This document shows positions 17,233 to 44,971 of a stretch of 60,688 nt of DNA, in pieces. Origin of the DNA: a virus. The notes under the pieces were generated by a model, which saw only the letters and a program-made list of their open reading frames with translations, searched no databases and was not told the DNA's origin. The first letter of the stretch is position 1, and every line of letters starts with the position of its first letter. Location of the stretch: IMG/VR virus record IMGVR_UViG_3300023196_001456, positions 1-60,688 of that record; one strand, 5' to 3'. The translations under genes were made by a program, and so were the position numbers.

Positions 17233-17653
17233 ATGTATTTATTAGTTTAGTAACTTTATCAAATGCATTCATATAACTTTTATCTTTTATATAAAGCATA
17301 TCATCAACGCTGTTTCTACTGTGTACCACACTTGAATGATCACGTTCAATATATTTACCTACAGCATGGCAAGTATATCTCATAGTATGACCCACATGAC
17401 AGTAAATCTTTCTGAACATTACCAAGTCTTTAGTTCTGTTTAATACAGAAAGTTTCTTGATACTTTGTAGTTCAGGATAAAGAATATGCATAGTAGTTAT
17501 GCATGCTTTATGTATTTGTTCAAGTGTTGGCCTGTATTCTCCTTCATTATGTAATTTTTGAAATACAATGATTTCAATTCCATACTCAGTGAGCATAGTT
17601 TCTTTGAACGTAACTATGTCATTATCAAGCCTATTGTGTTGATTCTTAGTCAT
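17192..17653 (-). CDS. Stand-alone DnaA domain IV-like DNA-binding protein
   Basis: 153 aa. Residues about 70-135 (RKIYCHVGHTMRYTCHAVGK then YIERDHSSVVHSRNSVDDML) match the C-terminal helix-turn-helix of bacterial DnaA, including the RDHSSVVH signature (RDHSTV in DnaA). The AAA+ domain of DnaA is absent. It may recognise DnaA-box-like sites in the phage origin or compete with host DnaA. A host-like promoter (TTG-N20-TAAATTTG) is 22 nt upstream of the ATG. Confidence 0.85.
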   Translation of the reverse strand: MTKNQHNRLDNDIVTFKETMLTEYGIEIIVFQKLHNEGEYRPTLEQIHKACITTMHILYPELQSIKKLSVLNRTKDLVMFRKIYCHVGHTMRYTCHAVGKYIERDHSSVVHSRNSVDDMLYIKDKSYMNAFDKVTKLINTYVGTIPNNIQKQT

Positions 17654-17674
17654 TTATGTTTGTTATATAGTTTA

Positions 17675-17705
17675 CAAATTTAAGAAAATTTTACCAGTCT
17701 ATCAA
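17675..17705 (-). promoter_or_regulatory. Bacteroidota-type promoter for the DnaA domain IV operon
   Basis: On the leftward strand TTG (17703-17705), a 20-nt spacer, then TAAATTTG (17675-17682) fits the -33/-7 consensus TTG-N(17-23)-TAnnTTTG of Bacteroidota. The -7 lies 22 nt before the ATG at 17653. It overlaps the last codons of the uracil-DNA glycosylase gene. Confidence 0.6.
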
Positions 17706-18365
17706 GGTTTTGCCTTGTTTATTTAGTTCTACATTAGTCTTATTAAACACGTCATTTGAATCCCAAATACCACCTCTATATGCAGCTGATGCAGGATGTG
17801 TACACTTAAGTATCTTTTGATTAGATATTAATCTTTCCCATGCTTCTGCTTTTTTACCCATCAATATAAAAACAATATCTTTATTGTCTTGATTGATCTT
17901 ACTAAACAGATGTTCAGTAAAGGGTTTCCAATGCCAAAAGTGTGATCCTATTTTGTTTACTTCAACTGTAAGAGCTGTATTAATTAATAGCACGCCTTGA
18001 TTAGCCCAACATTTTAAATCAGTGTGATCTGTATCAATTGCTTTATTGATATATTGTAAAGACTTTTCTGCTTTATCTTTTTTACTACAGCTAAAAGCCA
18101 AACCATCAGCTGATCCTAATTGTGGATAAGGATCTTGACCAACTATCACAACTTTTAAATCATCATATTTACACTCTTTGAATGCATTAAATATGTCTTT
18201 AAACTTTGGAGTAAATCTTTTACCTTCTTCAACTAAACTAACTAATGAATCTGTTAGATCATCATAAAGTTTGCTGTCAATATAAGGAAATAATATATCT
18301 GCCCAACCTGAGCTTTCTATATCTTTTTTTAAACTGTCTTTTAGAATTATAAGGTTTTTTTCCAT
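17691..18365 (-). CDS. ung: Uracil-DNA glycosylase (family 1-like)
   Basis: 224 aa from the second methionine (MEKNLIILKD). The more distant upstream ATG at 18425 would overlap the divergent gene and adds 20 poorly conserved residues, so I reject it. Motif 1 is VIVGQDPYPQLGSADGLAFS, with Pro where most family 1 enzymes have His. NQGVLLINTALTV and THPASAAYRGG (the HPSPLS counterpart) are also present. It removes uracil from DNA; crAss-like phages commonly carry this gene. Confidence 0.88.
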   Translation of the reverse strand: MEKNLIILKDSLKKDIESSGWADILFPYIDSKLYDDLTDSLVSLVEEGKRFTPKFKDIFNAFKECKYDDLKVVIVGQDPYPQLGSADGLAFSCSKKDKAEKSLQYINKAIDTDHTDLKCWANQGVLLINTALTVEVNKIGSHFWHWKPFTEHLFSKINQDNKDIVFILMGKKAEAWERLISNQKILKCTHPASAAYRGGIWDSNDVFNKTNVELNKQGKTLIDW

Positions 18366-18375
18366 ATTTCTTTCT

Positions 18376-18397
18376 ATTTTTGTATATTTGTATATAA
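18376..18397 (+). promoter_or_regulatory. Late-type AT-rich motif before the lone rightward gene
   Basis: ATTTTTGTATATT (18376-18388) matches the motif seen before several late genes with one T fewer, and is followed by TGTATATAA. It also contains TATATTTG (18383-18390), a TAnnTTTG element. It lies in the 42-nt gap between the divergent uracil-DNA glycosylase and rightward gene starts, 20-30 nt before the ATG at 18408. Confidence 0.55.
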
Positions 18398-18407
18398 ATC
18401 TTTTATT

Positions 18408-18848
18408 ATGTCTGAAGAAAATCAAAATTTAGAGTCAACTGTTACTTATGACTTTACAAAAGTTATAACAGGTATCACAGTATCAACCGCATATATTTCT
18501 GGTCTTTCTAGAATTTTAACTGATATGGTAACTAACTATCCAAATCCTGCAGGATTACCTAAACTATTTAAAAAGTTTGGTGCTATAATGCAGTTAGAAG
18601 ACGGACAAGAAATTACTGAAGAAATACAAAAAGATCTTACACTTGATATAAATGAATCTAATATTTATACATTGTTTTCTTTACTCCAACTTCTAAGGTT
18701 TTTAGCAAAAGAACAAGGTCTTGAAATTGAAACTAAGACTACTGCTACTAAAGATGATCTAAAGGATCTTGCTGATTTAGTTACAGCAGGTAAATCTACA
18801 GCAGATAAAATCAAAGAGATTAATAGTAAGATGAAAATAGTTAAGTAA
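18408..18848 (+). CDS. Unknown protein, the only rightward gene in the left block
   Basis: 146 aa. An N-terminal region with many Ser/Thr and small residues (TYDFTKVITGITVSTAYISG) is followed by charged helices (LFSLLQLLRFLAKEQGLEIE; DLADLVTAGKSTADKIKEIN). No family recognised. It is divergent from uracil-DNA glycosylase and meets the next leftward gene tail to tail with no spacing. Its promoter-like motif is of the late type, so it may be a late or virion-associated protein. Confidence 0.75.
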   Translation: MSEENQNLESTVTYDFTKVITGITVSTAYISGLSRILTDMVTNYPNPAGLPKLFKKFGAIMQLEDGQEITEEIQKDLTLDINESNIYTLFSLLQLLRFLAKEQGLEIETKTTATKDDLKDLADLVTAGKSTADKIKEINSKMKIVK

Positions 18849-19232
18849 CTATCTTAAATTCATACCATTAAACTCTCCAATTTCTATACATGATTGTATA
18901 GCTAAGTTAAGCTCATCTTTATCACAATCTGCAAAAGATTTGCAATACTCTTGCCCATCTCTAACAAAGCATAATCCACATGCTCTTTTTACTTCCATCT
19001 TTGCTTCTATAAATGTGTAGCCAATTTCTTGTGCTATTTCTCTAATCATTGCATGTACACGTGCTAACTGTGGGTTACTACCCTTATCACCACCTACACC
19101 AATAAATATTTCTAACTTAGAGTCATCAGGTAAACTACCTAACCATTTATTAAATTTGGTTTGAACTGCTTTCTTTGGGAAATACAATTCTCCATTTTTA
19201 ATTGAAGCTTTTATATATAAGTTATCTTTCAT
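18849..19232 (-). CDS. Unknown 127-aa protein (possibly recombination-related)
   Basis: 127 aa. The central ARVHAMIREIAQEIGYTFIE and the later YCKSFADCDKDELNLAIQ resemble the layout of small phage recombination/NinB-type proteins (strand, NPQLARVHA helix, SF...D helix), but I cannot confirm a family. It overlaps the stop of the small membrane gene upstream (ATGA). Confidence 0.6.
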   Translation of the reverse strand: MKDNLYIKASIKNGELYFPKKAVQTKFNKWLGSLPDDSKLEIFIGVGGDKGSNPQLARVHAMIREIAQEIGYTFIEAKMEVKRACGLCFVRDGQEYCKSFADCDKDELNLAIQSCIEIGEFNGMNLR

Positions 19233-19381
19233 CCTAATATAACATTACTTACAGCGCATGTTAATGATACTACTAAAAATATTAGTAGACTCCAAAAACA
19301 TCCTTTGTATATTTTAGATTGTCTTTCAGGAGATCTTCCTTGATTACTTCTGTACTGTCTTATTTTTTTTTCTTTTTTCAT
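19229..19381 (-). CDS. Small single-pass membrane protein
   Basis: 50 aa. A basic N-terminus (MKKEKKIRQYRSNQGRSPER) precedes one hydrophobic segment, FWSLLIFLVVSLTCAVSNVI (about residues 29-48). The stop overlaps the next start (ATGA) and its start overlaps the stop of the 31-codon frame upstream, supporting a real, coupled gene. Positive residues before the segment suggest the N-terminus stays in the cytoplasm. Confidence 0.55.
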   Translation of the reverse strand: MKKEKKIRQYRSNQGRSPERQSKIYKGCFWSLLIFLVVSLTCAVSNVILG

Positions 19382-19473
19382 ATAAACATGTGTTCATCTT
19401 GATTACTATTATTAGTGTTATCTTCTGGTAAATCTAATTGTGTTTCTGGTTCTTTTGGGTCATCTGTTTTCAC
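19378..19473 (-). CDS. Very small acidic protein with GTG start
   Basis: 31 aa, MKTDDPKEPETQLDLPEDNT at the start, strongly acidic. No ATG is available; GTG at 19473 is the first start codon. The TGA overlaps the ATG of the membrane protein gene. Support rests on this coupling and on filling an otherwise empty gap. Confidence 0.4.
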   Translation of the reverse strand: MKTDDPKEPETQLDLPEDNTNNSNQDEHMFI

Positions 19474-19483
19474 GTGATAGGGT

Positions 19484-20050
19484 TTAATTATAAAATTTAG
19501 TTATTGATTCACTTGTAAGTGTATATAAAGGTGCTTTCAAGCCTGCTTTTTTTAATCCGTTATTTACCCATGTGTTACAAGTGTAATACCAACGGTAGTT
19601 GTCTTTACCATAATAATAGTTTGGTGCATATTCTGAATTATAATGTGATTCATCTATGTGCTTTTTAATTATTTGATATTGCTTTTCAGAACACTTGACT
19701 GTTTTCCAATTAAAAGAATCAAAATAGAAAGTCTTCTGTACACGTACTAAAGTAGAAGGATCAGTAATCAAAGTTTTATATAGCTTTCCTATAGTTAAAC
19801 TATCAAATGTATCTACTTCTGTAAAAAATACTTTAGATCCCCAACCATAAAGTTTAAAGACTCCATCTTCTCTTAATACTATATCTACATGTGCACCATT
19901 ATCAGATAAATAAAATTCACGTTCTGATGATTTACTATAAGATCCAGTAGGTATATAGTGTGCTGCAAACATTATTAGTATAAAAACTAATGATGAGACA
20001 GCACAAATTTTTAATATGTCTTTTATTGCTTTTTTAAAATTCATGAGCAT
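19484..20050 (-). CDS. Membrane-anchored DUF2459-like protein
   Basis: 188 aa. A hydrophobic anchor (CAVSSLVFILIMFAAHYI, about residues 17-34) is followed by NGAHVDIVLREDG, YGWGSKVFFTEV (about 68-79), KYQIIKKHI-type helix and TCNTWVNNGLKKAGLKAPLYT (about 157-176), the order and motifs of DUF2459, an NlpC/P60-like family of unknown activity. The H of HVDIVL and C of TCNTW are the likely catalytic pair. Facing the periplasm, it could act on the envelope, for example in lysis or superinfection exclusion; this is inference. Confidence 0.75.
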   Translation of the reverse strand: MLMNFKKAIKDILKICAVSSLVFILIMFAAHYIPTGSYSKSSEREFYLSDNGAHVDIVLREDGVFKLYGWGSKVFFTEVDTFDSLTIGKLYKTLITDPSTLVRVQKTFYFDSFNWKTVKCSEKQYQIIKKHIDESHYNSEYAPNYYYGKDNYRWYYTCNTWVNNGLKKAGLKAPLYTLTSESITKFYN

Positions 20051-20282
20051 CTAAAATTTCTTGTTCAAAATCTTCATCTATGAGATTCATGACATCAATA
20101 TTAACAAGATTACCTGTTCTATCAATACCACTATACCATACATGAGTTATGTCTGCTGTTGGTCCATAACCTGGTGTTCCTGGATCTCCATTAGAATCAT
20201 AATATTGATCTGGTTCTCCTGGGTCATAATTATATTCAACCGTAACTGACTCACCTGTTTGTGTTATAAGATCTATTTCCAT
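20034..20282 (-). CDS. Small acidic Gly/Pro-rich protein
   Basis: 82 aa. EYNYDPGEPDQYYDSNGDPG and TPGYGPTADITHVWYSGIDR; very acidic with a C-terminal EDFEQEILDAHEF helix. It overlaps the DUF2459-like gene by 17 bases. No family recognised. Confidence 0.65.
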   Translation of the reverse strand: MEIDLITQTGESVTVEYNYDPGEPDQYYDSNGDPGTPGYGPTADITHVWYSGIDRTGNLVNIDVMNLIDEDFEQEILDAHEF

Positions 20283-20283
20283 A

Positions 20284-20523
20284 CTATATAAATCTTAGTG
20301 CACCTCCATCAACGTAAACAAACTCTTGTCCACACTCAGTGCACTTAGCATTTGATTCATTACGTAATAAAGAAACATTATAACAATTAGGACAAGGAGT
20401 ATCTCCTTCTTCTATATATTCTTCTATTGCTTTTCTAGCATAGCTATGTATCATTGCATCATGTGCACCACGATACTCTAGCTCTTCTTGTTGCTCAATA
20501 AAGAGCTCTTTCATTTTTCCCAT
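20284..20523 (-). CDS. Small zinc-ribbon protein
   Basis: 79 aa from ATG 20523. The same frame stays open to 20646, but that extension is occupied by another gene in a different frame, so the shorter start is chosen. The N-terminal half is helical (MKELFIEQQEELEYRGAHDA) and the C-terminal half holds CPNC ... CTEC, a zinc ribbon. No family recognised. Confidence 0.7.
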   Translation of the reverse strand: MGKMKELFIEQQEELEYRGAHDAMIHSYARKAIEEYIEEGDTPCPNCYNVSLLRNESNAKCTECGQEFVYVDGGALRFI

Positions 20524-20527
20524 AATA

Positions 20528-20674
20528 TTATTTTTTTTGACTGTCCATCCAACATCTACTACTGCAATAGCTTTCATACTCTGATAGCTTACCACATTGT
20601 AGACATTTATAAACTTTATTAGTTTTAGTTTCTGTTTTTTTATCATCCATCCAACTCCATTCTTGAATACTCAT
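20528..20674 (-). CDS. Short CxxC...CxxxC zinc-binding protein
   Basis: 48 aa. After an acidic, Trp-rich start (MSIQEWSWMDD) it has YKCLQCGKLSEYESYCSSRC, with four cysteines spaced like a small zinc knuckle. It begins two bases after the SF2 helicase stop and ends five bases before the next ATG, which fits a packed operon. Role unknown. Confidence 0.65.
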   Translation of the reverse strand: MSIQEWSWMDDKKTETKTNKVYKCLQCGKLSEYESYCSSRCWMDSQKK

Positions 20675-20675
20675 C

Positions 20676-21776
20676 TTAGTTATTTAAAGGATTGTAAAAT
20701 TTAATTTTAGAATTGTCAAAATCTTTCAAAGCATTGGTAACCCATGTCTCATCCTGTGTACCTGTATAACATAGTATGTGACATACTGCTGTTTCAGATG
20801 GATTAAGTCTTAGTAATCTACCTATTCTTTGTGAAGATTTTCTTTCATTACCATATGCATGCATAATAATACCTTGTTTAAGGTTTGGAATTGTAACACC
20901 TTCTGATAATTGTAACACGCATGATAACTTATCAATTCTACCATCAGAGAATAATTCTAGATTCTCTTCTGATTTTGCATTACCAGAGTGATAACTATGC
21001 TTGCATAATTTATCAGCTTGCTTTTGTGTATTAGCAAATATAATGCACTTATCACCTAAGTTAGAAGTCAATGATTTGACGTAATCTTCTTTAGTAGAGT
21101 AGTCCATCAATGCTTTCATTCTCATAATAGCAGCAAACTGTCTTTGTTTTGGTGTATTAGCATCTGCATAACGCTTAGTAGAGTAACTATAGTCTAAGAA
21201 TTCTGATGTCCACCAAAAACCTCCATTTTTATTCTTTTTCTTTAGTGTCTTAAGTTTAGACAACTCCAGTTGATGAACAAAAATTTTATAGTTGTTTAGT
21301 ATTTTAGAATCTGTTGCATCATCTACACTAAATGTAAACTTGATGGGACAATACTTTTTGACCATTCTACCTTTTACAGAATCAGCACGTTTTGGTGGTG
21401 TACCTGTTAAGCCTAATATTTTACCTGTAAATACAGACAAAAATGGCTCATGTGATTCTAATAAGCTATGACATTCATCTAAATAGACTATATCATAGTC
21501 ATTTGGATTCTGTTTGTTTATAGATAAGTATGTTGTAAACGTTATATGTTTAACTAATGGGTATAATCCCATTTTATCTAGTTCATCAAGCCAAGACTGA
21601 GCTACTGAATGTTTTGGTATTACTACTAATGCATTTATAAAAGGATTATAGTTTCTTTGTAAGTGTTGTATAGCAATTCTTGTCTTACCTACACCCATAG
21701 ATATGCCTAAACCACATCTTTTATGTTGTGCAGCTATAGATAATGCATCTGCTTGTACTATTTCTCTTTTAGTCAT
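20676..21776 (-). CDS. SF2 (DEAD/DExH-type) helicase
   Basis: 366 aa, short for SF2. Q-like/Walker A region GLGISMGVGKTRIA (about residues 22-35), motif Ia VVIPKHSVAQSW, motif II LDECH (about 98-102), motif III LGLTGTPP, then in domain 2 CIIFANTQKQADKL and motif VI QRIGRLLRL (about 322-330). Likely a DNA helicase/translocase for recombination or replication restart. The first gene after the tRNA cluster. Confidence 0.88.
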   Translation of the reverse strand: MTKREIVQADALSIAAQHKRCGLGISMGVGKTRIAIQHLQRNYNPFINALVVIPKHSVAQSWLDELDKMGLYPLVKHITFTTYLSINKQNPNDYDIVYLDECHSLLESHEPFLSVFTGKILGLTGTPPKRADSVKGRMVKKYCPIKFTFSVDDATDSKILNNYKIFVHQLELSKLKTLKKKNKNGGFWWTSEFLDYSYSTKRYADANTPKQRQFAAIMRMKALMDYSTKEDYVKSLTSNLGDKCIIFANTQKQADKLCKHSYHSGNAKSEENLELFSDGRIDKLSCVLQLSEGVTIPNLKQGIIMHAYGNERKSSQRIGRLLRLNPSETAVCHILCYTGTQDETWVTNALKDFDNSKIKFYNPLNN

Positions 21777-21817
21777 AATTATTACATGAATTTTTTAATT
21801 TTTTAGATTTATAAAGG

Positions 21818-21891
21818 TGCTCCCTATAGGACTTGAACCTATGACCTTTTCATTATGAGTGAATTGCTCTAACCAACTGAGCTAAGAGAGC
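21818..21891 (-). tRNA. tRNA-Met (CAT)
   Basis: 74 nt cloverleaf on the leftward strand. Acceptor GCTCTCT pairs with AGGGAGC (one G-T), D arm GCTC/GAGC, anticodon loop CTCATAA with anticodon CAT, T arm ATAGG-TTCAAGT-CCTAT. The anticodon stem has one outer A-A mismatch. The CCA end is not fully encoded. CAT could also be an Ile tRNA after lysidine modification. Confidence 0.9.
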
Positions 21892-21894
21892 CGG

Positions 21895-21980
21895 TAGCCG
21901 GAGTGGGATTTGAACCCACACGGACATTGCTGTCCAAAGGATTTTAAGTCCTTCATGTCTACCAATTTCATCATCCGGCC
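21895..21980 (-). tRNA. tRNA-Leu (TAA)
   Basis: 86 nt class II tRNA. Acceptor GGCCGGA pairs with TCCGGCT (G-T at the end), D loop AATTGGTAGAC, anticodon stem AAGGA/TCCTT around CTTAAAA (anticodon TAA), a long variable arm and T arm GTGGG-TTCAAAT-CCCAC. Only three bases separate it from the tRNA-Met gene. Confidence 0.93.
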
Positions 21981-21985
21981 AACAG

Positions 21986-22059
21986 TGATCCCACAAGGAC
22001 TTGAACCTTGAACCTACAGCTTAGAAGGCTGTTGCTCTATCCAATTGAGCTATAGGACC
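21986..22059 (-). tRNA. tRNA-Arg (TCT)
   Basis: 74 nt. Acceptor GGTCCTA pairs with TGGGATC (two G-T pairs), D arm GCTC/GAGC, anticodon stem ACAGC/GCTGT around CTTCTAA (anticodon TCT), T arm CAAGG-TTCAAGT-CCTTG. It reads AGA, by far the commonest Arg codon of this AT-rich phage. Confidence 0.93.
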
Positions 22060-22077
22060 TAATTTTATAGATCAAAT

Positions 22078-22482
22078 TTAAATCCTCTTTTCAGAAAAAC
22101 CTAATTCTATAGCTTCTTTTGGATGTTCTTCTATCCACATGTGACATGACCTGCATGATGATAGCCAAGTGCTAACCTTTAAATGATATTCCCCACGTCC
22201 TTTCTTATGATGTACATCTGTAGAATGTAACGTGCAATTGTGCAAAGCTGCTTGACAAATTGGATTCTCTTCAAGAAACTTACGTCTAAGTTTACTGTAA
22301 GCTAAATCAATAACTTGCATTTTCTTTGACTTTTGCTTAATGGGCTTTCTCATTAAAGGTTTAGCATCTGTACTCTTACTTTTGTACCAGCAACTCTTGC
22401 AATAACGGTTTCCTTTATCATTTTTCCAGATAAATTGTTCCGTATTGCAATTGTTACATAGTTTCTTTTTTTGTTGAATCAT
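22078..22482 (-). CDS. HNH endonuclease with N-terminal zinc fingers
   Basis: 134 aa. The N-terminus has CNNC ... CKSC. The C-terminal HNH domain reads CQAALHNCTLHSTDVHHKKG, then STWLSSCRSCHMWIEEHP, with paired cysteines and the catalytic HH. It could be a homing-type, packaging or recombination nuclease; its place next to the tRNAs is compatible with homing, but it is not inside a gene. Overlaps the next gene by four bases. Confidence 0.85.
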   Translation of the reverse strand: MIQQKKKLCNNCNTEQFIWKNDKGNRYCKSCWYKSKSTDAKPLMRKPIKQKSKKMQVIDLAYSKLRRKFLEENPICQAALHNCTLHSTDVHHKKGRGEYHLKVSTWLSSCRSCHMWIEEHPKEAIELGFSEKRI

Positions 22483-23021
22483 GCTTTCAACTTTTTTTGA
22501 TTGTCATTTGGACTTAAAGTTAAGTAATTTGCTGGTAATAAACCCTTTGACATAAATAAAAGTATCACATCTTCATATACTATACCTAAATCTTTAAAAG
22601 ATATTGTATTATTATAATCTTCTAAATACTCATCAACTGGTATAGATATTAAAAACTCAACTGATTTACCTTTAAATGTTCTTTTAAAGTAGTTGTTGAT
22701 CTTTTTACTGCAAATCATTTGTTTCCAAGCATTGATTTCTCTTTGACCTCTTCTCCAAACTTTTGAGATTCTTCTTTTTTTATCCCAATGTAATTTTTCA
22801 ACCTCAGCTTTATCATAGACGTTTAACCCATGTAACACTCTCTTAAACAAGAAGTGTTGGTATGAATTTAACTTGGTATACTCAAAGTTGTTAATAATTG
22901 TAGGTGGATGTAACTGATATTCATCAAGTATTCCATAATAGTGGTAACGTTGAAGTCTTTTACTTAGGAGATCTTTACTTTCATTTTGTTTTAGTTGTGT
23001 TAATTGTTCTTGAGATAGCAT
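22479..23021 (-). CDS. Unknown 180-aa basic protein
   Basis: 180 aa, basic with many aromatic residues (KLHWDKKRRISKVWRRGQRE; INAWKQMICSKKINNYFKRT). The core suggests nucleic-acid binding. No family recognised. Translationally coupled to the HNH gene. Confidence 0.7.
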   Translation of the reverse strand: MLSQEQLTQLKQNESKDLLSKRLQRYHYYGILDEYQLHPPTIINNFEYTKLNSYQHFLFKRVLHGLNVYDKAEVEKLHWDKKRRISKVWRRGQREINAWKQMICSKKINNYFKRTFKGKSVEFLISIPVDEYLEDYNNTISFKDLGIVYEDVILLFMSKGLLPANYLTLSPNDNQKKLKA

Positions 23022-23067
23022 ACATATAGTTTTAATTTTTATTTAATATAATTTTAGATTTAATAAT

Positions 23068-23112
23068 AAAAAAAGGGACTATCACACTATTTCTAGTGGT
23101 CAAGTCCCTTTT
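23068..23112 (-). terminator. Intrinsic terminator after the acidic-tailed protein gene
   Basis: Read leftward: AAAAGGGACT ... AGTCCCTTTT (23075-23080 with 23103-23108, extended by A-U pairs) followed by a T tract (23068-23074). The loop can form a second stem CACTA/TAGTG. Symmetric A and T tracts may allow termination in both directions. Confidence 0.85.
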
Positions 23113-23136
23113 CAGTCATCCTTCAGAGATGTTTAT

Positions 23137-23706
23137 TTAGAGTTCAAATGTCTCTTCTTCTTCTACTACTAATTCTTCTACTTTCTCATCAACAATTTCA
23201 TTTTCTACTTTTTCCTCTGATGAGTCAAATCCAAATGCCTCAGCTGTTGTAGCTTTCTTTGGTTTTTTCTCTAGGTTAAATGAAGTTGATGCGTTTGCAT
23301 CTTTGATTGCAGCACCATTATTATGAGCTAACAATACATCCTCCGCTGTTGCATCAGCAACAAAAAAGGTTTTCCTATAAATAGGTTCTCCATCAACACA
23401 ACAGATAATACCTGTATCACCTGCATACTTAAGGTCTCTATCAGGATCATTAGCTGAAAATGCATCAAATTGTTCTTTGATGATAATTTTACCTGGCAAT
23501 GTAGTCATAGATTCTAAACCAATAGATTGTAGATCTTCTAATTTACCATGTAGTAGTGTACTTATGTTTGATTTCTTAACCCAACCTCCATTACCAAAGG
23601 TAACTCTGTCTTGTTGTAATCTTACATAACCGTACTCTGAACTTGTGCTTGATTGGCGGATAACATTTCCCATGTCATCAGCAATGATGTTTACTTTACT
23701 TTGCAT
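23137..23706 (-). CDS. Abundant-type protein with acidic C-terminal tail (possible second ssDNA-binding protein)
   Basis: 189 aa. N-terminal half beta-rich (YGYVRLQQDRVTFGNGGWVKK; LPGKIIIKEQFDAF; GIICCVDGEPIYRKTFFVAD), then a linker and a long acidic tail ending VEEEETFEL. The acidic tail with hydrophobic end resembles SSB or T4 gp32-like tails. An A-rich leader and its own strong terminator suggest high expression. No named family is recognised; DNA binding is inferred. Confidence 0.7.
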   Translation of the reverse strand: MQSKVNIIADDMGNVIRQSSTSSEYGYVRLQQDRVTFGNGGWVKKSNISTLLHGKLEDLQSIGLESMTTLPGKIIIKEQFDAFSANDPDRDLKYAGDTGIICCVDGEPIYRKTFFVADATAEDVLLAHNNGAAIKDANASTSFNLEKKPKKATTAEAFGFDSSEEKVENEIVDEKVEELVVEEEETFEL

Positions 23707-23758
23707 AATTTTTGCTTTTTAAAATTTAATAAAATGTGTGAATGATTCTGTCTATCTT

Positions 23759-24028
23759 TTAGACATCATCTGGGTGAAAATACGGGTCTTCCAATTTCTC
23801 ATAACTATCTATTTCATCTAAAGATCTAGAGTCTTCAATGATCCTTTCAGGATCTTCATCAGATTCTTTCTCTTGTTTACCAGAAAATTGATTGTAAAAA
23901 GGATTACCCACTTCTTTTGTATATACTCCACCTAAACCATTGAGGTCTTTTATCTCATCATCTGATAAAGATAAATATTGCTCAACTGAACATTCTATTA
24001 TGCGTCCATTAGGTAACTGTATTATCAT
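23759..24028 (-). CDS. Small acidic protein
   Basis: 89 aa. Starts with MIIQLPNGRIIECSVEQYLS (a beta hairpin and helix) and ends in an acidic, probably disordered tail (DEDPERIIEDSRSLDEIDSY). I have seen similar short proteins in Bacteroidota phages but know no function. Confidence 0.65.
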   Translation of the reverse strand: MIIQLPNGRIIECSVEQYLSLSDDEIKDLNGLGGVYTKEVGNPFYNQFSGKQEKESDEDPERIIEDSRSLDEIDSYEKLEDPYFHPDDV

Positions 24029-24050
24029 TTTATTTGCTAAGTAAGTTTAA

Positions 24051-24058
24051 CAAAAATA
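24051..24058 (-). promoter_or_regulatory. Bacteroidota-type -7 element TATTTTTG
   Basis: TATTTTTG on the leftward strand fits TAnnTTTG and is 23 nt before the ATG of the 89-aa gene. No clear TTG is seen 19-23 nt further upstream. The rest of the gap (24059-24142) shows nothing else. Confidence 0.4.
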
Positions 24059-24142
24059 TAATAATTTATGTATCTAATATAACATAATAAGCATGTCTTT
24101 CATTATTAGGAGTAAAAAGTCTGCATATATATAGCTAACAGG

Positions 24143-24391
24143 TTATTTTATTATTAGCTTTCTACCTACTCTTTTAACATAATCTTGATCTTTCAGTTCT
24201 TTTATCAGTCTCTTTGTGGTTCTTTGACTTACATTTAAGTCATCCGCTAATGTTGATATAGAAGGAAAACAAGATCTTTGTTTGTTTGCATAACATGCTA
24301 AAACTGAGTATAGTGCTTTAGCTTTTATTGATAGGTCTGGTGATAATATAACCTCACGGCTAACTATACCAAATCTATAGTTCTGTGACAT
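24143..24391 (-). CDS. Winged helix-turn-helix regulator (HTH_36 type)
   Basis: 82 aa. LSIKAKALYSVLACYANKQRS and CFPSISTLADDLNVSQRTTK then LIKELKDQDYVKRVGRKLII: a classic winged helix of the HTH_36/replication initiator type with almost no extra sequence. It could be an early-gene regulator. It overlaps the upstream gene by 17 bases and lies near the right end of the leftward block. Confidence 0.82.
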   Translation of the reverse strand: MSQNYRFGIVSREVILSPDLSIKAKALYSVLACYANKQRSCFPSISTLADDLNVSQRTTKRLIKELKDQDYVKRVGRKLIIK

Positions 24392-24560
24392 GTTTAGACA
24401 TGATGATCAATAAAGCAAAGTTATGATCTACTTCTTTACTTAGTTCATCATTTCTCATACCATACTTATCATTCATCATCTTACCGAAAGGTATAGACCT
24501 GTCACTTTTTAACCACTTGTTATACTCACTGGTTAACAGTTCTCTACTTATTGTTGCCAT
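24375..24560 (-). CDS. Small unknown protein
   Basis: 61 aa, MATISRELLTSEYNKWLKSD at the start, helical. It ends inside the start of the winged-helix gene and begins nine bases after the next upstream gene, so it is part of that operon. No family recognised. Confidence 0.6.
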   Translation of the reverse strand: MATISRELLTSEYNKWLKSDRSIPFGKMMNDKYGMRNDELSKEVDHNFALLIIMSKHVTEL

Positions 24561-24569
24561 GTCTTGATT

Positions 24570-25139
24570 TTAAATTGATATTTCATTGATATCAGTTCCA
24601 TTAATTTCACTGAATAATTCTGTTTGAACTACTTTATTAAAGAAAGGAATAGTGTTTTTATCCACTACCTCAATGTCAAATGTATTAATTTTTGCTGACT
24701 CTTCTTTAATAACCTGGTTGTCTACGTCATAATAATAAAGCATTACCTCCATATTCATATGATATGGATCAAACTCATCACTCCATGAACCATCTGTTTT
24801 AATTCTACCATAGATATAACCATCTATAGTAGCAAGACCTTTATCAATTAGCACATCCCATTCAAAGTTTGTACCTGCATGATAACTTGGTGGCTTTACT
24901 TTAACAATATCACCCATCTGTAAAGTTTTGATTTCTTTGTAAGATAAGATACTGTTTAAGATAAAACTCATATGTGACTCACTTAATCCTTCATTAAGGA
25001 TATTCATGATGTGCACAATGTTTTCAGGATTAGACAACTTTGATTTGTTGACTATCCCATATATAATTTCTTTACTTGTTTTTTCTGATATTACGTATGT
25101 TGTATTATTTTTTCCCATTAATTTAATTTTAATAAACAT
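24570..25139 (-). CDS. Unknown 189-aa protein preceded by a start-codon hairpin
   Basis: 189 aa. N-terminal helices (EKTSKEIIYGIVNKSKL; IMNILNEGLSESHMSFILNS) followed by a beta-rich part (MGDIVKVKPPSYHAGTNFEW; GLATIDGYIYGRIKTDGSW), resembling a small SH3-like barrel. No family recognised. Its ATG lies in the stem of a 36-nt hairpin (see 25137-25172), so its translation may be controlled. Confidence 0.65.
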   Translation of the reverse strand: MFIKIKLMGKNNTTYVISEKTSKEIIYGIVNKSKLSNPENIVHIMNILNEGLSESHMSFILNSILSYKEIKTLQMGDIVKVKPPSYHAGTNFEWDVLIDKGLATIDGYIYGRIKTDGSWSDEFDPYHMNMEVMLYYYDVDNQVIKEESAKINTFDIEVVDKNTIPFFNKVVQTELFSEINGTDINEISI

Positions 25140-25172
25140 AGCAGGCCAATACTAATGATTGGACCCGCTATG
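25137..25172 (-). promoter_or_regulatory. Hairpin sequestering the start codon of the 189-aa gene
   Basis: On the leftward strand CATAGC...GCTATG closes the hairpin, with inner pairs GG/CC and CCAAT/ATTGG around a 7-nt loop. The final ATG is the start codon at 25139. Pairing is 13 bp with one mismatch and one bulge. The remainder of the gap to 25285 has a small GGTTA/TAACC hairpin (25176-25189) and an AT-rich stretch. Confidence 0.5.
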
Positions 25173-25285
25173 TTAGGTTACCACTAACCATATATACTGT
25201 GTGTTTCCCTAGCCTTACTACCTAGTAATAATATATATAATAATACTGGTGTTGTTAGGGTGTCAGGTGTGGCACTTTTAATTTG

Positions 25286-25633
25286 TTAAACTTGTTGTTT
25301 TATCTCCAATGATACAAATGGGATAAATACTATTACAGCTACATCTCTACCATTATATCCATAGTCAAGACCTATTCCAAAACCAATTAATGGCAGGATT
25401 TCTATATTAAACTTTGGTAGCATATGTACTTTTGGTAAGTAATTATATACTATGACTGCTAATATCATTACAGTAAAGTAAGATAGTATTAGTCCACTCC
25501 ATACTAATGGTGTAGATATAAAGCCATCATTGAATACGATAGCTGCTAATGTTACTGTTGCAAGTATAGGTGATACTACAACAAATACTATTTTAATAAT
25601 TGATCTGAGAATTCTTTTATAAGTTGGTTTCAT
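25286..25633 (-). CDS. Small multi-pass membrane protein
   Basis: 115 aa. Basic N-terminus (MKPTYKRILRSIIK), then hydrophobic segments at about residues 15-35 (IVFVVVSPILATVTLAAIVF) and 42-62 (PLVWSGLILSYFTVMILAVI), and a weaker one near 80-105. Probably in the inner membrane. Could be an anti-superinfection or lysis-related protein, but nothing in the sequence proves it. Confidence 0.65.
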   Translation of the reverse strand: MKPTYKRILRSIIKIVFVVVSPILATVTLAAIVFNDGFISTPLVWSGLILSYFTVMILAVIVYNYLPKVHMLPKFNIEILPLIGFGIGLDYGYNGRDVAVIVFIPFVSLEIKQQV

Positions 25634-25637
25634 GGTT

Positions 25638-25922
25638 TTATTTATTATAAGATTGACAATAGTTTATATATTCTACATTAGAGAATCTTTTAATCTCTAT
25701 GATGTTGTTGTCCAAAGCAAGTGCTCTTAACTCATGGTTATTAGTAAGCTCTTCATTCAAATCTTCCATTAGTGGTGATTCAAGTTCATTACGTTTGATT
25801 ACGAAATGTTGTTCTCCTGTAAATAGGTTAACTGTTGGACTTTCAATGCTTGTATACATTAGTATACCGATTCTGTTGTTGTGCTGAACAAATTGCTCAG
25901 GGTATATGATTTTTATCTGCAT
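25638..25922 (-). CDS. Small unknown protein
   Basis: 94 aa, beta-rich (RIGILMYTSIESPTVNLF; EQHFVIKRNELESPLMEDL). No family recognised. Four bases separate it from the membrane protein gene downstream. Confidence 0.6.
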   Translation of the reverse strand: MQIKIIYPEQFVQHNNRIGILMYTSIESPTVNLFTGEQHFVIKRNELESPLMEDLNEELTNNHELRALALDNNIIEIKRFSNVEYINYCQSYNK

Positions 25923-25955
25923 GGTTTTGTGGTATTAATTAAATAAAGGGATAGA

Positions 25956-26129
25956 CTATCTACCCCATTTAGAACGTTTATGTTTTTTCTTGGATACCCA
26001 ATAGTTATTCTTGGCCCAAGCTTTTTTGTTTTTTGATGTCCCACATCTATTACGTGTGGATCCACATGATTGTAATACTGGTCCTCCAATAAAGAGTAAC
26101 AGCATTAGATAAAGAAACTTTCTTTTCAT
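25956..26129 (-). CDS. Small probable lipoprotein
   Basis: 57 aa. A signal peptide-like start (MKRKFLYLMLLLFIGGP) leads to VLQSCGST, a lipobox-like site with Cys at residue 22, followed by a very basic tail (NKKAWAKNNYWVSKKKHKRS). It fills a 220-base gap and lies just before a two-segment membrane protein gene. It could be an outer-membrane lipoprotein for superinfection exclusion, or a spanin-like partner; unproven. Confidence 0.6.
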   Translation of the reverse strand: MKRKFLYLMLLLFIGGPVLQSCGSTRNRCGTSKNKKAWAKNNYWVSKKKHKRSKWGR

Positions 26130-26146
26130 AGTTTAAGGATTAGTTA

Positions 26147-26353
26147 TTAATAATTAAGTTTTTCATGTACGTCTTGACCAACGAATGCTGCTGGTAACCA
26201 TCCAAAGATTATTGATACACCTATGGTAGCACCATGAGCAAAGCATTCTTTAAATGTCCAAGTATCTTCTAGATACCATACGATTGTATTTATGAATATA
26301 ACAGTTAGGATAAATGTTGCAACTGTAGCCAACATGATTTTAGTATTTTTCAT
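26147..26353 (-). CDS. Small membrane protein with two hydrophobic segments
   Basis: 68 aa. Segments IMLATVATFILTVIFINTIV (about residues 6-25) and ATIGVSIIFGWLPAAFVGQD (about 42-61). No family recognised. Together with the two genes that follow it forms a membrane/lipoprotein cluster at the start of the leftward block. Confidence 0.65.
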   Translation of the reverse strand: MKNTKIMLATVATFILTVIFINTIVWYLEDTWTFKECFAHGATIGVSIIFGWLPAAFVGQDVHEKLNY

Positions 26354-26400
26354 TTTAATTGTATTAGTGGTGATTGCAATATTGCGGGTAATATGATACT

Positions 26401-26580
26401 ATTCCTATAGAGGAAGAGACAACAACTACTCATGTTTTATTGTTGAGTGTAATTGTTACTCTTGTAGTGTTGTTAGCTATATTTATATATATAGGGTCCA
26501 GTTATTATTTTAATGGCCTTAAAGGTATATTATATGGCTTATATGATGTCATCTTCATTGTGCAACACCCAAATAAATAA
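26401..26580 (+). other. Rightward open frame without ATG, encodes one transmembrane helix
   Basis: A frame opened by a TAA at 26389 runs to TAA at 26578-26580 without ATG or GTG; possible starts are ATT 26401 or TTG 26434. The translation IPIEEETTTTHVLLLSVIVT then LVVLLAIFIYIGSSYYFNGL looks like a real membrane protein. It may be a gene with a rare start, a decayed gene, or chance. It lies in the otherwise non-coding gap 26354-26749. Confidence 0.25.
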
Positions 26581-26595
26581 TTTTTACATAACTAA

Positions 26596-26612
26596 TTACT
26601 AATTATTAGTAA
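26596..26612. promoter_or_regulatory. Perfect 17-bp palindrome, operator candidate
   Basis: TTACTAAT-T-ATTAGTAA, eight perfectly paired bases on each side of a central T. It is near the right end of the leftward block, four bases before the first copy of the 23-bp repeat. The winged-helix protein at 24143-24391 is a possible ligand; this link is speculation. Confidence 0.5.
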
Positions 26613-26615
26613 GAT

Positions 26616-26638
26616 GCAAAGATTAGTTGGGGAGCAGA
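26616..26638. repeat. 23-bp direct repeat, copy 1
   Basis: Contains ATTAGTTGGGGAGCAGA. It matches the copy at 27136-27158 at 20 of 23 positions, in the same orientation. The two copies flank the gene at 26750-27079. Confidence 0.7.
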
Positions 26639-26717
26639 GGTTGATATTGGAAGATGAGCAGAAATAGAGGTAAAGAATTGGTTAATGTAACATAGGAATT
26701 GTAACATTCCAGTTATT

Positions 26718-26742
26718 AAAGGCCGTGCTTTTACACACGGCC
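26718..26742 (-). terminator. Intrinsic terminator after the first leftward gene
   Basis: GGCCGTG-8 nt-CACGGCC (26721-26742), a 7-bp GC-rich stem, followed leftward by a short U-rich run (TTTAATAA). It ends the gene at 26750-27079. Confidence 0.7.
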
Positions 26743-26749
26743 ATTAAGA

Positions 26750-27079
26750 TTATACTGCTTCCACCCACATTAGTGTTGTGAGTTCACCGGTTCTAAGATC
26801 CGTTACTGCATTATCAGACATACGGAATCCAGGCATCTCTTGTCCAGGCTCTAATTTTTTCATTAGCTCTTGGATTGTTGGATGATTAGCTCTCATTACC
26901 AAATTGGTTTCTGGGTCTATAAGAGATAATTGGCCGAAGGTAATATTACCTTGAGTTCTACTACCAACAGCAAGACCAGCAAGTGTAGTCTTTTTGTTAG
27001 TGATTGGTGTTGACGTACACTGAATCATTGCTGAGCCTGTTGACTCATTGATTTGTACTTTTCTGAAGAATACTGACAT
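26750..27079 (-). CDS. First leftward gene, unknown 109-aa protein
   Basis: 109 aa, beta-rich (VFFRKVQINESTGSAMIQCT; TQGNITFGQLSLIDPETNLV) with a helical TIQELMKKLEPGQEMPGF segment and a final TTLMWVEAV strand. No family recognised. It starts the leftward block, has its own terminator and is flanked by 23-bp repeats, so it is probably expressed separately and strongly, perhaps as an early DNA-binding or host-takeover protein. Confidence 0.7.
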   Translation of the reverse strand: MSVFFRKVQINESTGSAMIQCTSTPITNKKTTLAGLAVGSRTQGNITFGQLSLIDPETNLVMRANHPTIQELMKKLEPGQEMPGFRMSDNAVTDLRTGELTTLMWVEAV

Positions 27080-27135
27080 AATTTATGAATTTAAAATATT
27101 AATGGATACCACTTATATACGGGGGTACCCTATCC

Positions 27136-27158
27136 GCAATAATTAGCTGGGGAGCAGA
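27136..27158. repeat. 23-bp direct repeat, copy 2
   Basis: Contains ATTAGCTGGGGAGCAGA. It differs from copy 1 at three positions and lies 57 bases upstream of the start of the gene at 26750-27079. Confidence 0.7.
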
Positions 27159-27290
27159 ACAGTAGATCCTCTTCAGAATGCCAAACACAAAACTTTTGCA
27201 ATACCGTGGGGGGTACAAAAATTAAAAATAAAATTTTTTTTAATCTAGTGAGTCCGGGAAATATGGAATTTAATTTTCAACCCTCACAAA

Positions 27291-27312
27291 TAATTTGTAT
27301 ATTAATTATATA
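27291..27312 (+). promoter_or_regulatory. Late-type motif before the first rightward gene
   Basis: TAATTTGTATATTAATTATA keeps the core TTTGTATATT of the motif found at 38155, 44972 and 56634. It ends 27 nt before the ATG at 27340. Confidence 0.5.
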
Positions 27313-27339
27313 AACACAACTAACTCTATAATTTAAGAT

Positions 27340-27666
27340 ATGAGTAAAGAAGAAGACGGAAGGGAGCATGATCCTATGGAAGATATTAAGAAAAAAGAGG
27401 CTGAATTAGATCAAGTAAATTTAGCTTATGACAATTCATATAAAGTTCTTACAGGGGAAATTGATTTCCATACATTACTAGAAGATTCATTTAAGGATGG
27501 GGATTCTGCACTGATGGCTTTTGATCCGGATTCTGGCCCTTTACAAACTGAATTAGAAGGTATGATTGCATGGTATATTGAATCAGAAGAGTATGAAAGA
27601 TGTGCCATGTTAAGAGATATACTGGAAGAGAAATTTCCAAGCTTACTAATAAACCAAACCAAATAA
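27340..27666 (+). CDS. Small acidic protein with UVR-like motif
   Basis: 108 aa. Acidic N-terminus (MSKEEDGREHDPMEDIKKKE) and a C-terminal YIESEEYERCAMLRDILEEK segment (about residues 79-98) that resembles the UVR helix pair of UvrB/UvrC and ClpC. The UVR motif mediates protein-protein contacts. It opens the rightward block. Confidence 0.7.
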   Translation: MSKEEDGREHDPMEDIKKKEAELDQVNLAYDNSYKVLTGEIDFHTLLEDSFKDGDSALMAFDPDSGPLQTELEGMIAWYIESEEYERCAMLRDILEEKFPSLLINQTK

Positions 27667-27668
27667 AG

Positions 27669-27989
27669 ATGGGAAATATATTACAAGACATGATTAGTAT
27701 GCTGACTAGAAAAAAGTCAGTGATACCAAAAGCAGATGATTACATTGCTATTGCTAGATATGCAGGTACACAAGAAAGATTAAAACAACATCCTAAACTA
27801 AACTCTGAGCTTACTACGTTGGGAGACTTAAAAAAGTTTACATCTGGTAACTCTGTTAATATAGGATCAGATCAAACTATAACCGGAACTAAAACCTTTT
27901 CTCGTATAGTTATTATTTCTGAGGATGGTACTAAGTGGGAACAAACTATCAGCAATGATGGAGTCACTGAGTACAATAAAATAGCTTAA
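27669..27989 (+). CDS. Unknown 106-aa protein
   Basis: 106 aa from ATG 27669; the frame is open further upstream but that part overlaps the preceding gene. The N-terminal half is helical and the C-terminal half is a repeat-like beta segment (NIGSDQTITGTKTFSRIVII) of the type found in phage fibre stalks. Possibly a minor virion protein. Confidence 0.65.
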   Translation: MGNILQDMISMLTRKKSVIPKADDYIAIARYAGTQERLKQHPKLNSELTTLGDLKKFTSGNSVNIGSDQTITGTKTFSRIVIISEDGTKWEQTISNDGVTEYNKIA

Positions 27990-27992
27990 TGA

Positions 27993-28247
27993 ATGGCAAC
28001 ACCAAGAAAAGGAAAGGCAAGAGTTAAAGTAACTAAATCAGGAAAGAAAGTTAGTTACGGACAAGCTGGTGAGGCCAAAGGAGGCGGACCAAGAGTTAAG
28101 CCTGGTACTTCAAAGGGTGATAGTTATTGTGCAAGAAGTTTAGGGATTAAGAAAAGACTTTCTGCAAAGAAAAGGAATGACCCTAATACACCAAATAATC
28201 TATCACGTAAGCGTTGGAAATGCTCAGGGGCAAAATCAAGAAAGTAA
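27993..28247 (+). CDS. Small Lys/Arg-rich protein 1
   Basis: 84 aa, very basic. Contains GDSYCARSLGI and NDPNTPNNLSRKRWKCSGAK. It belongs with the next two genes to a run of three basic proteins joined by TAATG overlaps. I recall similar sequences in marine phages, but no function. A role in DNA compaction or packaging is plausible from charge only. Confidence 0.75.
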   Translation: MATPRKGKARVKVTKSGKKVSYGQAGEAKGGGPRVKPGTSKGDSYCARSLGIKKRLSAKKRNDPNTPNNLSRKRWKCSGAKSRK

Positions 28248-28438
28248 TGGCAACAAAGAAAAAAAGTACAGTAAACAAGGCAGGCAACTATACTAAACCT
28301 GCAATGCGTAAAAGATTATTCTCTTCTATTAAAGCAGGAGGGAAAGGTGGAGCACCTGGGCAATGGTCAGCACGTAAAGCTCAAATGCTTGCTAAACGTT
28401 ACAAAGCTAATGGTGGAGGCTACAAAACTAAGAAGTAA
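28247..28438 (+). CDS. Small Lys-rich protein 2 (DUF5872-like)
   Basis: 63 aa from ATG 28247, which overlaps the preceding TAA (TAATG). The C-terminal APGQWSARKAQMLAKRYKAN resembles the DUF5872-type segment known from giant viruses and marine phages. Basic, with no other recognisable domain. Confidence 0.7.
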   Translation: MATKKKSTVNKAGNYTKPAMRKRLFSSIKAGGKGGAPGQWSARKAQMLAKRYKANGGGYKTKK

Positions 28439-28680
28439 TGGCAAAAGCTAAATCACAAAAGAGTTTAGATAAGTGGACTAAACAGAAGTGGAGAACTCCT
28501 TCTGGTAAAAAAAGTAAGGATACCGGAGAAGTATATGCACCTTCTAAGACTATTGCTAAACTTAAAAGCACTGCAGCAGGAAGAAAGAAGTTAGCTGCTG
28601 CTAACAAGAAAAAAAGAGCAGCTACCAAAAAAGGTGAGCAACACGCAAAGCATGGCCTTCATAAAGGCAAAAAGCGTTAA
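28438..28680 (+). CDS. Small Lys-rich protein 3, histone H1-tail-like
   Basis: 80 aa, over a third Lys/Arg. SLDKWTKQKWRTPSGKKSKD at the N-terminus and an AAGRKKLAAANKKKRAATKK tail similar in composition to histone H1 or bacterial histone-like tails. Starts in a TAATG overlap. Nucleic-acid binding is likely from charge. Confidence 0.72.
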   Translation: MAKAKSQKSLDKWTKQKWRTPSGKKSKDTGEVYAPSKTIAKLKSTAAGRKKLAAANKKKRAATKKGEQHAKHGLHKGKKR

Positions 28681-28740
28681 ATGAAAAAACAAAATAAATA
28701 GAAAAGGGCCTAAACTTTTTTTATTTAAACTATTTATATA

Positions 28741-28758
28741 TATATTTGTATAAATAAC
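28741..28758 (+). promoter_or_regulatory. Promoter candidate before the 101-aa gene
   Basis: TATATTTGTATAAATAAC contains TATATTTG (TAnnTTTG) and TTTGTATA, the first part of the late motif core. It is 25-42 nt before the ATG at 28783, in the 102-bp gap that otherwise shows only a six-codon frame at 28681. Confidence 0.45.
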
Positions 28759-28782
28759 GTTTAATAATTAAAAAAAAGCAAA

Positions 28783-29088
28783 ATGGCAAATTCTAAAAAC
28801 CAAAACCCATTACAAGACCAAGACCCTACTTTATCTAAAGAGGAAATGGCAGCACGTAGAGAAGAGATTACTGGATTCTATAAAGATAACATCCCTCATT
28901 TAGAAGTACAAGCAGAATATGAAATGTTACTGGCTACTATTGAGAAGTCTAGAGCAGAACGTATGCAAGCTCAAATGTTTATGGCTCAACAGTATGCTTC
29001 TCAAGAAGAAGGATCTAATCCAAACTCTGATGAAGCTAAAGCATTCAAACAAGCAATGGAAGAAGCTGCATCTAAAATAGAAGATTAA
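28783..29088 (+). CDS. Unknown Met/Gln-rich protein
   Basis: 101 aa. Charged helices with NIPHLEVQAEYEMLLATIEK then MQAQMFMAQQYASQEEG. A coiled coil is likely. No family recognised; placed just before the endolysin, so it could be a virion or lysis-related protein. Confidence 0.7.
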   Translation: MANSKNQNPLQDQDPTLSKEEMAARREEITGFYKDNIPHLEVQAEYEMLLATIEKSRAERMQAQMFMAQQYASQEEGSNPNSDEAKAFKQAMEEAASKIED

Positions 29089-29089
29089 T

Positions 29090-30010
29090 ATGAAACTTCT
29101 AAAGAAAGGTGATACAGGGCAAGATGTCAAAACACTTCAAACAGCATTAAAGATAACAGTTGATGGTCACTTTGGACCATTGACTGAGAAAGCAGTAGTT
29201 AGATTTCAGCTTTCTAATAACTTTCCCGTAACAGGTATAGTAGACTCTCCCGTATGGACACTTCTCTTAAATAAATCTATATTAGTATTAGATGAGATAG
29301 ATGAGGACAGTGATATTTCTGATGAATATTTTATTACAGAATATAATCAAACTATTCACAAATACTATTTACCTAAAGGTGAATATGTTAACGGGCCTAT
29401 AACTAATGACTACATATTCCTACATCATACAGCAGGTAGAGAAAATCCATATAGAACAGTGGATCACTGGGGTAGAGATAAAAGAGGTAGAGTAGCAACA
29501 GAGTTTGTACTAGGTGGAAGAAATCACAGAACAGGTGATACTGAATATGATGGTGTCATGGTACAAGCATTTCCAGAAAAGTGCCAGGGGTGGCACCTTG
29601 GAAGAACTGGATCAGGATGGATGAATAGACATTCTGTAGGATTGGAAATTTGTTGTGCTGGATATCTTGATGAGGATTACAAAACATACTTTAATAGCAA
29701 ATGTGCTGATACTGAGGTTATTGAACTAGAAAAACCTTTTAGAGGTCATTCTATATGGCATACTTATTCAGAAGAGCAAATCAAAGAAACTGAAAAGTGG
29801 ATCAAATTTGTAGCAGAGAGAGATAATATTGATATTAGAATAGGACTTCAACAGTATATTCATGAGCATGGTGCACATAAAGCCTTTGGGTTTCATGAAG
29901 ATGCTTTCTATGGAAAGGTAAAAGGATTATTAACACATACCAATGTAAGGAGAGATAAGTCTGATTGTTATCCACATCCTGACTTTGTAGATATGATAAT
30001 GAGTTTATAA
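29090..30010 (+). CDS. N-acetylmuramoyl-L-alanine amidase (endolysin) with peptidoglycan-binding domain
   Basis: 306 aa. Residues 1-60 form a PG_binding_1 domain (GDTGQDVKTLQTALKITVDG; VDGHFGPLTEKAVVRFQ). Residues about 80-300 are an Amidase_2/PGRP-type domain with zinc ligands in FLHHTAGRE (about 109-117) and in the HTNVRRDKSDCYPHPDF region (about 283-299). It cleaves the amide bond between MurNAc and the stem peptide. No signal peptide, so a holin or other export route is needed; no holin was recognised. It starts one base after the previous stop. Confidence 0.9.
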   Translation: MKLLKKGDTGQDVKTLQTALKITVDGHFGPLTEKAVVRFQLSNNFPVTGIVDSPVWTLLLNKSILVLDEIDEDSDISDEYFITEYNQTIHKYYLPKGEYVNGPITNDYIFLHHTAGRENPYRTVDHWGRDKRGRVATEFVLGGRNHRTGDTEYDGVMVQAFPEKCQGWHLGRTGSGWMNRHSVGLEICCAGYLDEDYKTYFNSKCADTEVIELEKPFRGHSIWHTYSEEQIKETEKWIKFVAERDNIDIRIGLQQYIHEHGAHKAFGFHEDAFYGKVKGLLTHTNVRRDKSDCYPHPDFVDMIMSL

Positions 30011-44955: not shown

Positions 44956-44971
44956 TTTATATTGTCTGTTA

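Follow-up and report, generated by a model that had tools for sequence, protein, structure and literature searches.

A hairpin around an apparent phage start codon belongs to a conserved candidate RNA element beside replication genes

Is a phage gene controlled by a hairpin that appears to enclose its start codon, or is the hairpin there for another reason? The question arises from a 60,688-nucleotide stretch of viral DNA (IMG/VR record IMGVR_UViG_3300023196_001456; hereafter the window), in which the ATG of a 189-aa open reading frame lies within a stem. A sequence-only reading had proposed that this stem blocks translation until it melts or is opened. The features referred to below are listed in the order in which the minus strand is read, followed by the kind of evidence that defines each.

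25286 to 25633, minus strand: gene for a 115-aa putative membrane protein, the usual upstream neighbour (42-locus comparison)
25135 to 25278, minus strand: the whole structured element, comprising a core at 25200-25278 and the terminal hairpin (covariance models R1 and R2)
25260 to 25275, minus strand: P1, a 6-pair stem capped by a loop of 4 bases (two-sided changes among 38 distinct versions)
25214 to 25258, minus strand: P2, a long hairpin with an AU-rich tip (alignment of 38 versions, mostly invariant)
25176 to 25189, minus strand: P3, the GGTTA-GTGG-TAACC hairpin (sequence inspection)
25135 to 25174, minus strand: P4, the terminal hairpin (folding, covariation, strand comparison, gap survey)
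25137 to 25139, minus strand: ATG within the P4 stem, not the conserved start
25119 to 25134, minus strand: AU-rich leader separating P4 from the start codon (sequence; gap in relatives)
24570 to 25118, minus strand: 182-aa gene from its conserved start (protein family alignment, predicted structure)
24143 to 24391, minus strand: gene for an 82-aa helix-turn-helix protein that resembles parts of phage replication initiators

The lower stem of P4 pairs AACATAGCGGG (25174-25164) with CCTGCTATGTT (25145-25135) on the minus strand and the upper stem pairs CCAAT with ATTGG, giving an architecture of 11 pairs, a small bulge and 5 pairs in which the ATG (25139-25137) is located in the 3' arm, as originally described. 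When the minus strand of 25080-25230 is folded, P4 is found in the minimum-energy and centroid structures alike, and the energy of the whole 151 bases is -32.5 kcal/mol, compared with -23.7 kcal/mol (sd 3.3) for shuffled sequences (z -2.69), with 1 of 200 shuffles equally good. Two-sided changes occur at 13 of the 17 P4 pairs among 10 distinct versions in the R1 alignment, indicating that pairing of the stem is under selection. Over the whole structure named in that alignment 27 cells show two-sided changes, compared with 7.8 after shuffling, a value reached by 0 of 500 shuffles. The existence of the hairpin is thus borne out by minus-strand folding and by covariation beyond chance, compensatory changes being present in relatives, and P4 is, on this comparative evidence, a selected RNA structure in the leader. 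Among 37 representatives, the hairpin upstream of the next start has energies from -15.7 to -36.0 kcal/mol and reaches p <= 0.05 relative to mononucleotide shuffles in 36, the exception being L069 (p 0.07). In some versions, among them L021, L032 and L036 as well as distant relatives, P4 has a long loop with recurring sequence, an example being AUACUUGUUU in the distant versions and AUUUGGUUUUA in nearer ones; the window is without such a loop. An intrinsic terminator, that is, a GC-rich hairpin followed by a T run, was considered and rejected for P4: the sequence directly 3' of the stem is TTATTAAAATTAAATT, and P4 is absent among the 10 terminator-like sites found by a scan of 16000-30000.

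Comparison of the two strands bears on whether the structure is selected as RNA or as DNA. The strand test used 30 representatives, namely the 37 without L045, L049, L052, L063, L073, L086 and L109. The P4 region is more stable in the gene sense than in the antisense in 30 of 30, by a mean of 6.8 kcal/mol, and G-U pairs account for 87 of 771 pairs in the sense strand versus 25 of 707 in the antisense. Likewise, the wobble cells of P4 in 10 sequences comprise 19 G-U versus 1 A-C. The greater sense-strand stability together with these wobbles indicates selection as RNA, and we conclude from the sequence comparisons that P4, at least, has been selected as RNA on the gene strand. For the element as a whole the sense preference is weak (23 of 37), and it is absent in P1 (20 G-U, 24 A-C) and in P2 (13 G-U, 42 A-C).

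The proposal that the stem buries the start codon did not hold. A second ATG (25118-25116) is in frame 21 bases after the stem ATG, behind an AU-rich stretch and 16 bases below the P4 stem in the window, and it is to this codon that the common N terminus of the protein family, M..TYxI, corresponds; only L041, L042, L050 and L119 among 42 family proteins extend upstream of the common start. Among the 10 versions compared that have the same hairpin type, an in-frame, open start-like codon is kept in five (L041, which is nearly identical to the window, L042, L045, L050 and, as GTG, L047). The stem codon is unusable in the other five, being out of frame in L051 and L052 and meeting a stop at the fourth codon in L049, L054 and L032. 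Because the stem codon of relatives is often GTG, out of frame or stopped, and because of where the family N terminus lies, that the window has an ATG at this place is most probably fortuitous. The gap between the hairpin and the next start has a median of 15 bases across the 37 representatives (12-18 in 26 of them; range -1 to 37), although in L049 the predicted structure extends into the start codon. Since the start codon is conserved outside the stem, the thermometer or start-codon switch suggested for this leader appears unlikely on these alignments. In start-codon-occluding leaders and RNA thermometers a hairpin adjoins the start codon; the present leader shares the hairpin beside the start and differs in that the conserved start lies 16 bases outside the stem.

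If P4 does not hide the start of the gene, its context becomes the more pertinent matter. P4 makes up the 3' portion of a conserved element occupying the gap between the membrane-type gene and the 182-aa gene, measuring ~145 bases in the window and about 145-200 bases in the family. Covariance model R1 scores 25135-25277 at 159.3 bits, and model R2 scores the core, 25200-25278, at 80.9 bits. P1 begins 10 bases past the upstream stop codon (25286-25288), and the copy in the window contains one C-A mismatch; two-sided changes are found at 5 of its 6 pairs among 38 distinct versions, the structure having been named by hand. P2 has the most conserved sequence within the element, its family form being CUAACARYACCAGUA, an AU-rich tip, and ACUAG followed by GUUAG (in the window, ACUAG-GUAGUAAG); as P2 is mostly invariant, its pairing is weakly tested. 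P3 is present in the nearer relatives of the window and is absent or altered in several distant ones. The structure of P1 and P2 was named by hand rather than predicted automatically, and RNAalifold predicts zero pairs on the core alignment of 38 versions. In the same alignment the number of pairs with a two-sided change is not above shuffles (10 versus 8.8; 149 of 500), and the number of cells with a two-sided change is 51 versus 19.9 (0 of 500), with 80.6% of cells paired. Model R1 pairs the 5'-terminal GCCAY with GUGGU of P3, an arrangement that was dropped in favour of the P1 hairpin; pairing between the 5' arm and the P3 region was unsupported in 28 representatives, where the arms of each sequence gave -6.75 kcal/mol and swapped arms -6.58 kcal/mol, 30% of permutations being as good.

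The element recurs well beyond the window. Relatives of the downstream protein were found at 13 viral-contig loci, of which L013 is partial, and in L010-L012, where the protein is 50% identical, the intergenic core is almost unchanged. A 21-base core string is present in 23 viral contigs, and a gapped pattern search added one more distant version, L038; L039 and L040 were dropped, as they resembled chance matches in coding sequence. For a sample independent of the RNA sequence, 80 related viral contigs were retrieved via a conserved neighbour protein. A search of these with R1 widened the family and showed its core to be two hairpins, and R2 finds matches in 73 of the 80 at E 6e-8 or better, a count that includes the rows of the model itself, 38 R2 rows coming from such contigs. 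In the seven contigs that R2 misses (L053, L060, L076, L108, L110, L111 and L113) the sequence extends only 814-1341 bases upstream of the query gene, and the element lies 1488-1804 bases upstream of that gene in the other contigs; the seven therefore end too early to reach its place, and all 73 loci that are long enough have it. Of 64 further loci, taken from a set of at least 119 stretches with already-counted contigs excluded, R2 has a match in 37 and no good match in 27. Near-duplicate contigs occur in the collections, so these counts are not of independent events. R2 finds a single place per record in 12 of 12 records, eleven of them viral (90-118 kb) and the twelfth a bacterial bin.

Cellular sequence gave a single occurrence. 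A first pattern scan of cellular contigs gave no match, and of the 16 cellular contigs picked out by a looser pattern R2 finds the element in only one, L131 (WLWP01000004.1; 114,697 bases, binned as Pseudomonadales). As this contig has relatives of both marker proteins in addition to the element, it looks like a phage genome of the group inside a bacterial bin. The search of eight named phages, including phi14:2 and crAss001, with R2 gave nothing convincing (best E 0.15). Named phages likewise gave no match to the DNA of 24500-25700 and no protein match to the 189-aa open reading frame or to the other, also 189-aa, neighbour protein; a search for the neighbour protein in the eight named records (5 + 3) gave no match, and the 182-aa family, sought in three named records, gave nothing in two and E 0.002 in csAssE-Sib. 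The terminase is ~25% identical to those of crAss-like phages (among 122 records), and the capsid protein matches 10 records, the nearest being Leptolyngbya phage Lbo-JY46 at 28.9%. Judged from these proteins, the carrier appears to be a phage group with a distant relationship to the crAss-like phages, seen so far only in sequence records.

Several other features of the window and its relatives were recorded. The string CTGCTCCCCARCTAAT occurs twice without mismatch, at 26622-26637 and 27142-27157 (minus strand), in noncoding sequence near the start of the gene run; these sites are possibly a phage promoter or regulator site, and two matches at <=3 mismatches arise in 10 of 100 shuffles. Comparable CTGCTCCC strings are found 3' of the element in L077 and L078. 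A 23-base AT-rich string with 91-100% identity is present at 38152-38174, 44971-44993 and 56633-56655 (plus strand), ~20-43 bases ahead of open reading frames at 38203, 45014 and 56698, and could be a late promoter. A 1142-aa open reading frame at 52374-55802 (plus strand) contains many Gly-X-Y-like repeats, with three 219-base repeats at 52874-53530.

The genes on either side of the element are of constant kinds. Across 42 loci the element usually starts no more than ~13 bases from the stop codon of a 103-127-aa gene, membrane-type by eye, the exceptions being L082 (274 aa), L064 (76 aa), and L084 and L085, which have only a short open reading frame 170 bases off. On the 3' side the 182-aa family follows directly or after one small gene, and then usually a gene for 60-78 aa and the helix-turn-helix gene. 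The extra small gene is found in L055, L058, L061, L065 and L073, and there too the gap from hairpin to start is 13-22 bases, indicating that the element is not tied to the 182-aa gene alone. The model of the 182-aa protein (mean pLDDT 84.6) has a predicted SH3/Tudor-like barrel. In a structure search no PDB entry was matched at E <= 0.001; Tudor domains and ribosomes head the VIA-align matches, at Z <= 6.9, possibly reflecting a mere common arrangement, and a NusG-like match at Z 5.6 is generic. One of 37 downstream proteins, that of the window, weakly matches a replication initiation protein in PHROGs (E 9e-5). Comparison of the 37 with Pfam, PHROGs, PADLOC and NCBIfam yielded no firm family assignment and no toxin family, and weak PADLOC matches were to Drt9 in two and DrmC in one. 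A Type III toxin-antitoxin system, in which an RNA of tandem repeats precedes the gene of an endoribonuclease, was considered and rejected, there being no toxin family downstream and no tandem repeats found in 25000-25700.

The reading we favour, with confidence about evenly balanced, is that the element is an intercistronic RNA with a cis-acting role in the replication-side operon. The element would be transcribed as part of the operon and would influence in cis the expression of the genes downstream. With P1 adjoining the stop codon of the upstream gene and P4 ending immediately ahead of the leader, the transcript could fold between two translated genes. Such a fold would usually leave both leader and start codon accessible, and a phage or host protein, RNA polymerase or a processing enzyme may bind the invariant part of P2. 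Candidate mechanisms would thus include a bound protein, antitermination and processing. The constant kinds of neighbour in most of the 42 loci count in favour of action in cis, although the compact layout alone could account for the position of P4 next to the leader.

A related reading, to which we assign a modest chance, is that the RNA is part of a replication switch, either as an origin primer or loading RNA or as an RNA bound by the neighbouring barrel protein so as to time replication. In autogenous control an operon RNA is bound by a protein of the same operon, and the element resembles such RNAs in being a structured RNA ahead of a gene with a predicted barrel, a fold seen in ribosomal protein and Tudor domains; it differs from them in that the fold match here is weak, generic and predicted only. 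That the element is itself the start of replication, as a folded single strand or a priming RNA, has a smaller chance. The cumulative GC-skew minimum of the window falls at 25,384, ~110 bases from the element, while gene direction and AT skew, by contrast, switch near 27.0-27.3 kb. Of 32 loci, 24 have the minimum closer to the element than to the direction switch, the initiator-like helix-turn-helix gene is ~750 bases from the element, and single copies in the 12 records tested would suit an origin. When longer stretches of 11 genomes are considered, however, the minimum is at the element in five (the window, G001, G002, G004 and G011), nearer the direction switch in five and uninformative in one. 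The lack of tandem repeats at 25000-25700 also argues against an origin, and the sense-strand wobble pairs of P4 favour RNA over duplex DNA.

An antiterminator RNA that modifies RNA polymerase in the manner of HK022 put is improbable, despite the presence of strong hairpins within a run of same-strand genes. According to PMC9378689, put is ~70 bases long, has two stem-loops, lies at or ~270 bases downstream of an early promoter, and works without dedicated trans-acting protein factors. The element is similar to put, as described there, in being a phage stem-loop RNA for which a cis role would be proposed, that of put being in early transcription. It differs from that description in its length of about 145-200 bases, its three to four hairpins and its sequence, and also in placement, since it lies ~1.8 kb inside the minus-strand gene run and apparently not within some 270 bases of a promoter. 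Terminator-like hairpins picked out by eye flank the element at 26721-26742 and 23075-23108 (minus strand), although the scanner lists neither and lists 25948-25966 instead; and the NusG-like match of the downstream protein is too generic to lend weight.

It is distinctly doubtful that the element is an independent small RNA acting in trans, whether released by cleavage of the operon transcript or transcribed from a promoter within the upstream gene. Its ends are well defined, it is present in one copy, and gene insertions next to it are tolerated. Sigma-70-like matches lie just upstream of and at its 5' end (25352-25380 and 25237-25266, minus strand), at a chance frequency (72 versus 76.8 expected). 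There is no terminator match at the 3' end, however, and the constant neighbours suggest action in cis. A strict Bacteroidota-type promoter scan is empty near the element, which says little given 5 matches versus 4.4 expected overall. Blocking of the start codon by the hairpin, as thermometer or switch, is very improbable: the ATG sits in the stem and in frame in the window and its close relatives, but it cannot start the gene in half of the same-type versions, and the family begins at the next ATG, beyond the stem.

As an intercistronic RNA the element was compared with known families. At the gathering threshold Rfam 15 finds three tRNAs and nothing else in the window, where a trio of tRNAs (Met, Leu, Arg) is located at 21816-22059 (minus strand). 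It finds none in 25050-25330 up to E 5 and none in seven loci at the gathering threshold; in L084 and L077 up to E 1 the only matches, to microRNA, histone stem-loop and snoRNA families, fall far below threshold (best E 0.0073). No Rfam family covers the element. A literature search, covering titles and abstract openings, gave no description of it, and the text of PMC10136315 is without the terms non-coding, noncoding, RNA structure, terminators and promoter. In PMC2864571, manA, wcaG, Ocean-V and Ocean-VI are candidate structured RNAs for which environmental sequence is part or all of the evidence, some of them from phages, and in this respect the element is similar to them. There manA and wcaG are tied to cyanophages and metabolic genes, unlike the element, and the table of that source gives Ocean-VI no Rfam number, so that Ocean-VI falls outside the Rfam comparison made here. 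Taken on its sequence, the element appears to be a new family of RNA whose general kind is known, most likely one that acts in cis between cistrons.

The locus illustrates that what looks like a 'hidden start codon' in a single genome can arise by accident within a covarying stem. The covariance models provide a marker for finding the phage group, and control of this operon, in a group without a known isolate, becomes a testable question. A structured RNA that is kept by 73 of 73 long-enough loci, in single copy where tested and beside replication genes, is probably important to these phages.
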